DNA from: Artemia franciscana
Lineage: Eukaryota > Arthropoda > Branchiopoda > Anostraca > Artemiidae
DNA: 64,000 nucleotides
Direction of reading: 5' to 3'
Assembly (NCBI RefSeq): GCF_032884065.1
Contig: NC_088883.1
Coordinates: 28,471,355 to 28,535,354, forward strand
The position numbers and the translations under genes were made by a program. This document shows, one piece after another, positions 28,660 to 48,076 of this stretch. Numbering within the stretch: the first letter of the stretch is position 1; each line of letters begins with the position of its first letter. A model generated the notes under the pieces. It saw only the letters and a program-made list of their open reading frames with translations, did not search any database and was not told the DNA's origin.

Positions 28660-29408
28660 AAAAAAAACTAATATTAATACAAAAGAAGAAAAAAAACTAA
28701 AAAAGATAAAAACTACAAAAAGACTATAAAGAAAATACTAAAAAAATTAAAAAAGCTAAAAAACTAAAAAAAAAGTAAAAAAACTAAAAACTAAAAAAGA
28801 AAAAAAACTAAAAAAAAGGTAAAAACAAAAAAAAACTAAAAAAGGTAAAACTACAAAAAAAACAAAAAGAAAAAAGAAAAAAAACTAAAAAATCCAAAAA
28901 AAGGTAAAAACCAAAAAAAACTAAAAAGAAAAAAAAGGAAAAAACAACAAATTTATTTCATCATATACCAATTCAAAAACGAATGTATATACAGACCAGG
29001 ACACAGGGAATATAAATGACGACCGGGACACTCGAAGAGAAATTACAGACTGGGACACCAGGACACAAATGACGACTGGGACGTGTGTGTCGACCGACGT
29101 CATGTTTGTCGACTATAAATGACGACTGGGACACAGGGACACAACTAAAATGGGGACGCCGGGGGGCACAGGGGGATATATAAATGACGATGGGGACCCA
29201 GGGAATGTTTGATTAGCAATCACCATCAACAAAGCTCAAGGGCAATCATTAGAATAATGAGGTATAGATCTGAATTCGGATTGTTTTTCCCATGGACAAT
29301 CATATGTTGCATGTTCAAAAGTCGGTAAACCTGACAATCTATTTATATGTACAGACAATGGGACAGCGAAGAATGTTGTATATTCGCAAGTTTTACGTAG
29401 TTAAAAAC
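28660..29408 (+). mobile_element. Helitron derivative, A-rich type, partial
   Basis: A-rich ctaaaaa/ggtaaaa tract (28660-28940), then the gacgaccgggacac minisatellite (28990-29190), then a relic of the helicase C-terminal coding end (29208-29404: agcaatcaccatcaacaaagc through the tatattcgcaagttttacgtagtta block). It runs into (TA)n. Neither 5' TC end nor 3' hairpin is present. Confidence 0.75.
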
Positions 29409-29516
29409 ATATATATATATATATATATATATATATATATATATATATATATATATATATATATATATATATATATATATATATATATATATATATATAT
29501 ATATATATATATATAT
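29409..29516. repeat. (TA)n array
   Basis: About 108 bases of alternating TA between two Helitron derivatives. Confidence 0.98.
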
Positions 29517-29647
29517 ATATAAATAAGTTGTCTGTCTGTGTGTCTGTCTGTGGATCAGGTGACGTCATGTTTCTGTGTCGACTGACGTCATGAAGTTAGT
29601 AGTCGTCATTTTTGCTATGACGGTGACGTCATTAAAGATATTTAATC

Positions 29648-30640
29648 ATGAAGTTAGTTGTCGTCATTTCGAAACCCTTTGGCAGCACATTAATATTGCT
29701 TGCGGGAGATATCAGGCAAACATTACCTATAATACATAGATCAACTCCTGCAGACGAAATGAATGCTTGCCTGAAAAATTCTAATTTATGGGCACACGTA
29801 AAAATGTTAAAATTAACTACAAATATGCGTGTCCGATTGCAAAACAATGACTCTGGTCAAACATTTTCAGATCAATTGCTGGCAATTGGAAACGGAAAGC
29901 TCCCAGTAGACTCAATTTCAGGACGTATACAACTACCTGCTGATTTCTGTAATTTAGTGACGTCCAAAAATGAATTGATTGAAAAATTATTTCCGAATAT
30001 TCTAAAAAATTATAAAAATAATAAATGGCTAAGTGAAAGAGCGATTCTCGCACCCAAAAGTATAGACGTCCACGAAATCAACAATATTGTTTTGACCAAG
30101 ATTCGAGACCAGGCAGTCATTTACATGTCAGTCGACACAGTTTTGGAACCAAATGAAGCGGTTAATTATCCATCTGAATTTTTAAATTCCATAGATCTTT
30201 CAGGGTTTCCACCACACGTGCTACAACTAAAAATAGGCGTACCAATAATACTTTTAAGAAATATCAACCCACCAAAGCTTTGCAATGGCACGCGACTTGC
30301 CGTAAAAATAACAATGGAAAACCTAATAGAGGCCACAATCTTGACAGGGCCTTTTGAGGGTGAGGCTGTTCTTATTCCTCGCATTCCCATGATTCCAACG
30401 GATCTGCCTTTTCAATTTAAAAGATTACAATTCCCAATTCGATTAGCATTTGCAATCACCATTAACAAAGCTCAAGGTCAATCATTAGAAAAATGTGGTA
30501 TAGATCTTAATACTGATTGTTTTTCCCATGGACAATTGTACGTTGCATGTTCGAGGGTCCGTAAACCTGACAATCTATTTATATACAGCGACAATTGGAC
30601 AGCGAAGAATGTTGTATATTCGCAAGTTTTACGCAGTTAA
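29648..30640 (+). pseudogene. Truncated Helitron helicase, C-terminal half, intact frame
   Basis: 330 codons from an ATG in the former 5' leader. A deletion joined MKLVVVIS directly to KPFGSTLILLAGD, so Walker A and B motifs and the whole Rep domain are missing. The remainder runs through the helicase LLAGDxRQTLPI segment, the AITINKAQGQSLE segment and the LYVACSRVRKPDNL motif to the natural stop. It cannot hydrolyse ATP as a helicase should. The open frame may reflect youth of the copy rather than function. Its sequence matches the minus-strand element at 43.2-44.2 kb. Confidence 0.8.
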
Positions 30641-45860: not shown

Positions 45861-45877
45861 GCATGGTGAATTTTCGT

Positions 45878-47935
45878 TCAGTGCACCGCAAGTATTTCTT
45901 CAGGTATTTCAGCGGAAATCGCATCATCAATTTCGTTCGAAGTAATTTTTTTATGCAGCCAGATTAGCATATGTGCGTGTGGCAAACCTCGTTTTTTCCA
46001 TTCCACTAAGTACATCCAGCATCGCACTGACCCAAACACTTCAAAATTTACTATGTAGTTTATCAGTGATTTCAACTTTTGCCGGAAGACACGGGCCGTA
46101 ATGTCATGTCTATGAACCGCCGATTGTCCTTGGAGTAAAAGCTGCAGTATCTCGTCCCAAGATTGATTACATGTAAATGTAATAAATAAATCTGGAAGAC
46201 CATAGAGACGAACATACGCAATAGCATCTTGAGCATATTCATGCATATGACGGGGACTGCCAGCATATGACGAAGGTAAAATTGTTAATCTTCCAACGTT
46301 TGTGGTATTACCGTCATTTATAACTGCATCTCGCAAATGAATGTATTGTTCAGAGCAGAGCTTGGTCTGATTCTGGCGGATATATAGCAACCGTTCTGAT
46401 TCAATTTTAGCATACATATCAACGACGAATTGGTGAAACAATTGACGGCATTTTAAAATATAATTTTCTTCATCCTGTCAAATCATTTGTCTATAGGAAT
46501 GATAATGCATTGCACTGCATTTCTTATTCATTTCTTTGTTAGTGGCTGGATTTATCAATTTAATATTGAAGTGATAGCCGTCGTCTCTATCCCAAAAAAT
46601 GATAGGATATTGTAGGGCATCGTAGCATCGATGAGTTTCAGCAATTCTTAACAACTGAGCGTTTCGCTTATGAAGAATAATATCTCGAGGTAAGAACTGA
46701 TCACCGACCATAACGATTGCCACTTCGTCGATAGTTGGAACATTGTATCTACGCACATGTTGGCCAGGAGGCGTTTTGTCAGCGGAAATAAAAATTTTAT
46801 GCGTATCAGTAGGCATCAAATCGATGGCTGTTTTGAACAGACGCACTAAATTATTATTTTCGTGGAAAAGATGTTGCAATTGGGAAACGATTGTCCTTTC
46901 AACGTTGGGAGAAATTTCGCAACGTGCATTCAATTCAGAATTTCTATCACTGATGAAGTACAATTGTAAAAATTTATGATTCTCGCCTGAAAATGGTAGA
47001 AGGGACCCTGCTCTATGATAAATTTGCCCTTTTACTTTGAAAGTAGACATAAATTGATCTGGATTTTCGATTTGGGCTCCAAACGACGTCATTTGGAAAC
47101 ATGAGTTATATTTTCTGATTTGTGACAAAAAACGCTTAGATTCTGACGTAGTTCCAGTAAGGAAAGTCTTCAATGGCTCTAGTGGTGCAGCCAATAGAGG
47201 AAGTTTAACTTTTCCTGAGGCGCAACACATTCCCATTGTTTCACCATTGAATTTCAAGGCCTTGCAATAGGGACAAATTTTAGACATAGTCCCGATTTGA
47301 ACACATCTACTCAAGCTATAATCATCGACTGGGCTGTACCTGAATGCCAGGCGATAACTTTCAGGTTGCTCTGATTCCTCGGCACGCTTTCTTTTCTTAC
47401 TTTCTCTATCAGCAGCAAGCCTGATTTTTTGCTGTTCTTGTGATTCCTCGGCACGCCTTCTTTTTTCACTTTCTCTTTTAGCAGCAAGTCTGGTTTCATG
47501 TTGCTCTGGTAGTTCCTCGGCATGCCTTCTTTTTTCACTTTCTCTTTTAGCAGCAAGTCTGGTTTCATGTTGCTCTGGTAGTTCCTCGGCATGCTTTCTT
47601 TTTTCACTTTCTCTTTTAGCAGCAAGTCTGGTTTCGCATTGCTCTGGTAGTTCCTCGGCACGCTTTCTGTTCTTTCTTGCTCTATCAGCCTCAAGCCTGT
47701 TTCCTTGCTGTTCTTTTGATTCCTCGGCACGCTTTCTTTTCTTACTTTCTCTATCAGCCTCAAGCCTGTTTCCTTGCTGTTCTTTTGATTCCTCGGCACG
47801 CTTTTTTTTCTTACTTTCTCTATCAGCAGCAAGTTTTTTGGCATAGACTCTTTGAGCATCTTCCTCGGCTGTTGCCATTGTAAGTTCATCAGTCATTTTA
47901 CAGTTAAACATTAATAGATTTCTACGTGAACGCAT
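45878..47935 (-). pseudogene. Helitron N-terminal and Rep (HUH) region, with in-frame stop
   Basis: One frame with a TGA at 46480-46478, probably from CGA, splitting it into 485 and 187 codons. Residues about 20-200 are charged repeats (RESxKRRxAEExxEQ, 23-residue unit). A zinc-finger-like CPYCKALKFNGE...MCCASG follows, then the Helitron N-terminal domain. After the stop come the Rep motifs: LFITFTCNQSW and the metal-binding KRGLPHAHMLIWL (H-x-H, intact). It ends prematurely at 45878, where a deletion and frameshift remove the segment that should lead into NSPCMAKGRCTKQYPR. In a working element Rep nicks and joins single-stranded DNA during rolling-circle transposition. Confidence 0.9.
47360..47870 (-). 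repeat. 69-bp coding tandem repeat in the Helitron ORF
   Basis: About seven to eight units, each giving a 23-residue charged segment (for instance RHAEELPEQHETRLAAKRESEK). The derivatives at 32.2 and 35.2 kb have a single unit, so unit number varies among copies. Probably coiled coil. Confidence 0.9.
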
Positions 47936-48076
47936 GTCTTAAATATCTTTAATGACGTCACCGTCATAACATAAATGACGACAACTAACCTCATGACGTC
48001 AGTCAACACACAAACATGACGTCACCCGACAGACAGACCCACACATCCACAGACAACTTATTTTTATATATATAGA

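Follow-up and report, generated by a model that had tools for sequence, protein, structure and literature searches.

Head-to-tail joins between Helitrons in Artemia franciscana and a possible orientation-specific joining to resident 5' ends

Adjacent and tandem Helitrons have been described in several systems. The transposase of the bat element Helraiser joins the element's own two ends into a circle, both in cells and in vitro (PMC4778049, PMC5876387), and these circles contain an end-to-end CTAG/TC join (PMC4778049; the slash marks where a 3' end meets a 5' end). In maize, two different Helitrons sit head-to-tail with such a CTAG/TC join, which was attributed to consecutive insertion; as one option, the T that opens the resident 5' end would form the target A-T together with a host A (PMC2267711). 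Direct head-to-tail joins in Myotis lucifugus were read as tandem repeats (Pritham and Feschotte 2007, as cited in PMC2267711). Fusarium Helitrons show self-insertion and several 5' termini, and Metarhizium carries tandem copies (PMC5148889). Tandem insertions and truncated copies in plant centromeres were attributed to circular intermediates (as cited in PMC5148889, PMC5876387). As far as these sources describe the field, the origin of tandem Helitrons, i.e., rolling-circle multimers or insertion beside existing copies, is debated from few cases. Here, we studied a Helitron array of the brine shrimp Artemia franciscana. It lies in a stretch of 64,000 nucleotides (nt) of contig NC_088883.1 (positions 28,471,355 to 28,535,354), which we call the window and whose own numbering is used throughout. 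Within the window, ten units (X, B, C, D, E1, E3-E2, E4, E6-E5, E7, E8) that all belong to a single canonical Helraiser-like Helitron family lie in the interval 28660-48076. We give roughly even chances to the explanation that the array grew by repeated insertion into TA tracts together with a preferred joining of incoming 3' ends to resident 5' ends, and not by rolling-circle concatemers.

Two joins of the array were studied at single-nt resolution. An initial annotation of the window had reported copies that meet without a spacer at 35043/35044 and, on the minus strand, at 39687/39686, and both positions are exact. On the plus strand, CTAG ends at 35043 and TATATATATAAAAATAAGTTG begins at 35044, while on the minus strand CTAG covers 39690-39687 and is followed by base 39686. 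At both joins, the second element is without its 5' TC such that CTAG directly meets TATATATATAAAAATAAG. The missing TC had been overlooked, as had an assembly gap within the array. Since TC is missing at both, these joins are not perfect end-to-end dimers.

Pairs of neighbouring ends were counted over the whole genome (1.27 Gb assembly, 6,468 contigs) for gaps of at most 30 nt. The head-to-head and tail-to-tail patterns are palindromic and were counted once; the gap of a head-to-tail pair contains 8 nt of one 5' end, that of a head-to-head pair 16 nt of two 5' ends. This resulted in 4,424 head-to-tail, 828 head-to-head and 329 tail-to-tail pairs. Uniform scatter of the ends would give about 17, 16 and 5 pairs, respectively. 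Under random orientation, the expected head-to-tail number is twice the square root of the product of the two inverted counts (about 1,044), i.e., the observed value is 4.2 times higher and the joins are thus not due to chance.

The joins fall into defined products. Recurrence elsewhere in the genome, which the initial annotation had left to be checked, is clear: the TC-less join of the window, CTAG/(TA)5AAAATAAG, is found 1,102 times. The perfect join CTAG/TC(TA)5 occurs 559 times and the TC-less join with (TA)4 only 19 times. This 58-fold step from (TA)5 to (TA)4, in place of a spread of lengths, makes slippage an unlikely source of the TC-less joins. If elements had inserted at an A-T within the resident (TA)5, tracts of (TA)4 or shorter should remain, yet (TA)4 is rare. 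Among the first 100 head-to-tail joins listed (C1, 0.2-29.4 Mb), 29 are CTAG/TC joins, 20 of them with exactly TC(TA)5. TC-less joins comprise 18 with exactly (TA)5 and 11 with other pure TA lengths, and 4 joins are of other kinds; (TA)2 is seen in 5. An example from the fetched loci (numbered with the prefix L) is L078, which reads CTAG/TC(TA)4.

The flanks of individual ends were investigated in a sample of 39 3' ends (260 nt read) and 39 5' ends (248 nt read). It is not random but holds the best 40 of 2,032 and the best 40 of 2,532 candidates, respectively, without the window's own, and the duplicate loci L062/L069 and L092/L100 remain within it. Pure-TA alignments (more than 92% A+T) as well as matches to the left arm of the 3' palindrome were removed before counting. 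As a control, we used 30 sites of 200-260 nt, each 100 kb away from a sampled end. Family sequence lies beside 27/39 3' ends and 26/39 5' ends (in total 53/78) compared to 7/30 control sites (Fisher test, p = 3.5e-5). The 53 neighbours comprise 35 copies on the same strand as the sampled end and 18 inverted copies (p = 0.027). Within 8 nt, the joins of the 78 flanks are exclusively head-to-tail (15, or 13 after merging two like-locus pairs). The flank of L083 meets the inner palindrome arm of an inverted copy, i.e., no true end.

The family is abundant throughout the genome. Exact 5' ends are found 50,450 times and exact 3' ends 28,208 times, with 20 and 0 matches for the respective reversed-pattern controls. 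Composites with several 5' ends, 3' truncation or the strictness of the patterns are possible causes of the 5' surplus. Given this abundance and the 7/30 positive control sites, of whose sequence the family covers 1,486/7,200 nt (20.6%), a Helitron cluster within 20 kb is ordinary in this genome, and the term hot spot in the initial annotation was an overstatement for this locus. The same control sites led us to reject an early view of only a few thousand copies, which was based on first-look candidate numbers of 1,529, 2,032 and 2,532 and would have made every neighbour within 260 nt noteworthy.

A process in accordance with these observations might run as follows. The family would insert between A and T, mostly within TA tracts. 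Its own TA-rich 5' sequence, plus an internal TA tract in some copies, would mean that each copy supplies new targets. Arrays could then grow by repeated insertion of different members beside and into one another, in an order of events that we infer. Over and above such undirected clustering, the CTAG 3' end of an incoming element would preferentially be linked to a resident copy at its 5' end. That is, the resident 5' end, being a recognition site of the transposase, may serve it as an acceptor in trans; the chemistry would presumably be that of circle formation from a single element, with the two ends now belonging to separate copies. Among the joins, two defined products are prominent, one with the resident TC kept and one with TC lost and (TA)5 intact. 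For the exact loss of TC, our guess is a 2-nt staggered cut with subsequent filling or trimming, which would give both products. We infer the joining step since abundance and TA-tract insertion explain the clustering but neither the orientation bias nor the exact products. The wider proposal is that the family has a second, orientation-specific route of integration. Here, the resident 5' end would be the target, and the arriving 3' end would be attached to it either at base 1, with TC retained, or at base 3, with TC lost. This route would have built thousands of head-to-tail joins and would render a resident Helitron the preferred landing pad. From sequence comparison, we put it forward tentatively and consider it somewhat less probable than an even chance.

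Beside repeated insertion at Helitron ends, the initial annotation had offered a rolling circle that reads past the terminator. Insertion agrees with the 4,424 head-to-tail joins, with the presence of inverted pairs, and with a comparison of partners. For the latter, we took 17 head-to-tail pairs with an identifiable left 5' end and matched the initial 300 nt of the left element against 112 5' regions, that of its right neighbour among them. The neighbour is the closest match in one pair only, namely the window's C/D, and not in 16/17; judging by the best-match scores, C-type copies from elsewhere are apparently missing from the 112 regions. Concatemers, in which replication does not stop at the 3' end and lays copies end to end, or in which a multimeric or imprecisely closed circle is inserted, are in our view unlikely to explain the array. 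As a general cause they predict CTAG/TC joins between identical neighbours, whereas both window joins are without TC and neighbours mostly differ. The array is also not explicable by concatemers alone, because it contains head-to-head and tail-to-tail pairs, which they cannot yield and which require another route. On the other hand, the 559 perfect CTAG/TC(TA)5 joins are what concatemers would leave, and Helraiser is reported to form precise circles (PMC4778049) as well as many imprecise junctions (PMC5876387). Furthermore, C and D are mutual best matches in the tested set, with 99.2% identity over 2,066 nt (16 substitutions, one indel); their four 690-nt units have a single informative change in common. 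This similarity is weak evidence and no sign of a local duplication, since the scrambled C-type body is dispersed genome-wide at 99% identity (41 full-length places including the window's own, from the best 40 of 620 candidates). We thus rejected C/D as evidence of a local dimer. Read-through may still have given rise to C/D, or to part of the 559 perfect joins. Very doubtful, in turn, is undirected TA-tract insertion alone in a family-rich genome, with TC later removed by TA slippage. It would fit the family's presence at control sites, the TA sequence of nearly all flanks, and head-to-head and tail-to-tail numbers 53 and 68 times their uniform expectation. It fails to predict the 4.2-fold head-to-tail excess over the value derived from just these inverted pairs, and the 1,102 to 19 ratio of TC-less (TA)5 to (TA)4 joins shows no slippage spread.

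Several observations weigh against a preferred joining of incoming 3' ends to resident 5' ends. In 38 of the first 100 head-to-tail joins listed, a spacer precedes TC, as plain TA-tract insertion would produce. Head-to-head pairs with short spacers of 6-10 nt exist as well (three in the fetched loci and the window), and the loci of the 17 tested pairs had been chosen by similarity to the window's own junction. Cutting of a resident 5' end should leave a remnant on the left side of the incoming element; one is suggested for C/D and L022, perhaps also L040, and none is seen at L023, L026 and the 39687 join (L029, L030, L031 and L037 are unreadable). TCTA-type runs precede TC at many ordinary ends too, which weakens the reading of TCTA before C's TC as such a remnant of D's 5' end. 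Head-to-tail counts may moreover be inflated by the copying of composites, since the inner junction of E3-E2 recurs at L026, and L092 and L100 are identical with L101 97% alike. Such copying could even be the main source: joins would be rare, but a head-to-tail pair could be mobilised as a unit from the outer 5' end to the second 3' end, which is not the case for inverted pairs, so that head-to-tail pairs multiply. Composites with several 5' ends are known in Fusarium (PMC5148889). We regard this as an unlikely main cause, although it contributes to some degree: the five TC-less joins of the 3'-end sample have five different right partners, and the 5'-end sample includes left partners of four types (A, B, C and E7). 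Finally, identical flanks are found on placed and unplaced contigs, and the latter may duplicate loci. Together with the 100-N gap within the array and the fragmentation into 6,468 contigs, this would be in line with misjoined or collapsed repeats. An assembly artefact is nevertheless extremely improbable, as the exact join is present 1,102 times with different partners where sampled, and random misjoins would not favour head-to-tail over inverted pairs.

The layout of the array is summarized in the table. Its ten units confirm the cluster of about ten Helitron copies or fragments that was initially annotated. We find 12 5' ends across the window (11 inside the interval) and 8 3' ends (7 inside). 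A ninth match to the 3'-end pattern at 44840 was dropped due to its position within coding sequence. In the window, the 3'-end pattern has 13 matches (left palindrome arms included) compared to 0.00 in shuffled sequences, and the 5'-end pattern 13 compared to 0.40; the matches are thus not due to chance. Left of the gap, X, B, C and D are on the plus strand; to its right, E1, E3-E2, E4, E6-E5 and E8 are on the minus strand and E7 on the plus strand. Inverted neighbours meet head-to-head at 41110/41121 and tail-to-tail at 42773/42928. D enters the gap from the left and E1 from the right, such that contiguity of the array across 37110-37209 is unproven.

Table. Helitron units, joins and spacers of the array together with copy A (positions within the window).
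Feature	Position	Strand	Support
A, complete non-autonomous copy, outside the interval	12670..14236	+	
X, fragment of a non-autonomous copy without 5' end or 3' hairpin, stops in TA tract	28660..29408	+	alignment to A and E7
B, 3' part of helicase twice in tandem (1,075 nt apart), without 5' TC, CTAG 3' end	29508..32066	+	
C, non-autonomous, scrambled body (690-nt and 329-nt internal duplications), TC and CTAG	32083..35043	+	
C-D head-to-tail join without TC, CTAG/TATATATATAAAAATAAG	35040..35061	+	1,102 identical joins genome-wide
D, second C-type copy, 99.2% identical to C, interrupted by gap	35044..37109	+	
Assembly gap of 100 N within the array	37110..37209	.	
E1, 5' portion of a copy, TC present, interrupted by gap	37210..37405	-	
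E3-E2, composite with 5' ends 38926 and 38372 and a single 3' end	37456..38926	-	inner junction recurs at locus L026
E4, short copy without TC, with CTAG, directly abutting E5	38995..39686	-	
E5-E4 head-to-tail join without TC	39669..39690	-	
E6-E5, 5' ends 41110 and 40683; 3' end retains CTAG, without hairpin	39687..41110	-	
TA spacer, 10 nt, between head-to-head E6/E7	41111..41120	.	
E7, complete non-autonomous copy with TC, hairpins and CTAG	41121..42773	+	
TA tract, 154 nt, between tail-to-tail E7/E8	42774..42927	.	
E8, coding copy, now a relic	42928..48076	-	
PIF1-like helicase part of E8	43527..45899	-	Pfam PF05970 E 5.9e-66; Helraiser 7lcc E 7.7e-126
Rep (HUH) part of E8	45878..46477	-	Pfam PF14214 E 1.1e-54; Helraiser 7lcc E 3e-47

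By its termini and coding sequence, the family is a canonical Helitron of the Helraiser group. Pieces of E8 match Helitron_like_N (Pfam PF14214) and PIF1 (PF05970), with Helraiser as the best match in the PDB. E8 shows an in-frame stop, a frame change, a TTAG end and a shortened 3' hairpin region. Its first tyrosine aligns with Helraiser Y727 and the second (Y731) is replaced by C, which refers to a relic and the sole copy checked. Helentrons (Helitron2) are defined by extra domains such as an endonuclease and by non-canonical termini. The canonical termini of the array family argue against this class, and a Pfam scan of the E8 frames reported no endonuclease-type extra domain.

Intact 5' ends read TCTATATATATAAAAATAAGTTG. 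The 5' TC is kept at 8/12 window ends and at 19/39 sampled genome ends, the remainder being altered or joined. CTAG is present at 7/8 3' ends of the window, E8 being the one with TTAG. The 3' hairpin reaches CTAG and in most copies follows another hairpin that also has the loop GCGAAGC; folding of the 3' end of C gives z = -7.73. The hairpin is retained at 6/8 window ends, i.e., E5 is without it and that of E8 is shortened. With regard to the insertion site, the base before TC is A at 8/8 window ends and 13/19 sampled ends, and the base after CTAG is T at 8/8 and 38/39, respectively; a target duplication is unreadable in TA tracts.

Some further observations concern the same elements. The loop GCGAAGC, an unusually stable DNA mini-hairpin, closes both 3' hairpins (e.g., 34985-35043), which in E8 look fused through a deletion between their repeats. 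The internal TA tract of non-autonomous copies (29409-29521, 42533-42614) also serves as insertion site: the tract of X contains the start of unit B, and several of the sampled ends are likewise located in internal TA tracts. A second sequence resembling a 5' terminus, TCTATCTATATAAAAACGAGTTG, is located about 330 nt ahead of the 3' end in several copies (30670 and 31745 on the plus strand, 43214 on the minus strand). It recurs in many fetched loci and could be an alternative start or belong to a short element embedded there. Internal tandem duplications without termini between the copies span about 1,075, 690 and 329 nt in the window (29669-31890, 32536-33915 and 33902-34557) and about 2,076 nt on C11 (locus L119). 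The tandem pair at C11:9278-9280 kb was accordingly rejected as a join, since no termini separate its parts, and is an internal duplication. A 69-nt tandem repeat encodes the N-terminal part of the E8 coding region (46478-47938, minus strand), for which Pfam gives a match to STPRs (E 1.4e-9).

Elsewhere in the window, the halves of 14286-14583, right after A and between two TA tracts, resemble by eye a long inverted repeat (fold-back element) that is apparently TA-inserted. In a 1,109-codon open frame at 60479-63808 (minus strand), a unit of 123 nt (41 residues) is repeated about 17 times and the C-terminus is hydrophobic; Pfam listed five families for it, with no stretch passing by itself. 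Searches of viral and bacterial collections as well as Rfam and tRNA scans were uninformative, and phage records gave distant helicases only (below 60% identity).

These joins matter beyond the locus. The 4,424 exact head-to-tail joins, along with matched inverted controls, are enough to test how tandem Helitrons originate. The loss of exactly two bases at the join would reflect how the transposase processes its 5' end within a chromosome. It also points to a simple means by which a transposon could steer part of its own traffic onto existing copies. In the open-licence literature we found neither a TC-less head-to-tail class nor an orientation count of such scale, where no search was made by that class's name. 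Adjacent and self-inserted Helitrons are known, and it is the scale, the orientation bias and the TC-less join that look new.

Compared to the systems described so far, the array family is closest to Helraiser, with which it shares Rep and a PIF1-like helicase, the TC 5' end, the CTAG 3' end, a 3' hairpin and probably A-T insertion (PMC4778049, PMC5876387). Relative to Helraiser as presented in these sources, the Artemia hairpin extends to the very end and has a second hairpin before it; relative to its circles, the Artemia joins lie in the chromosome, connect different elements in most cases and often lack TC. Maize provides a single case, in contrast to the 4,424 joins, the orientation bias and the TC-less product observed here. 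Direct end-to-end joins in an animal genome are shared with Myotis lucifugus, while neighbours in Artemia mostly differ. Fusarium and Metarhizium Helitrons have in common with the array self-insertion, composites with two 5' ends and possible insertion into the 5' end of another copy, but are non-canonical, with other termini and described as single cases (PMC5148889). Finally, plant-centromere Helitrons form arrays too, whereas those of Artemia mix whole, partial and inverted copies, with joins on many contigs.

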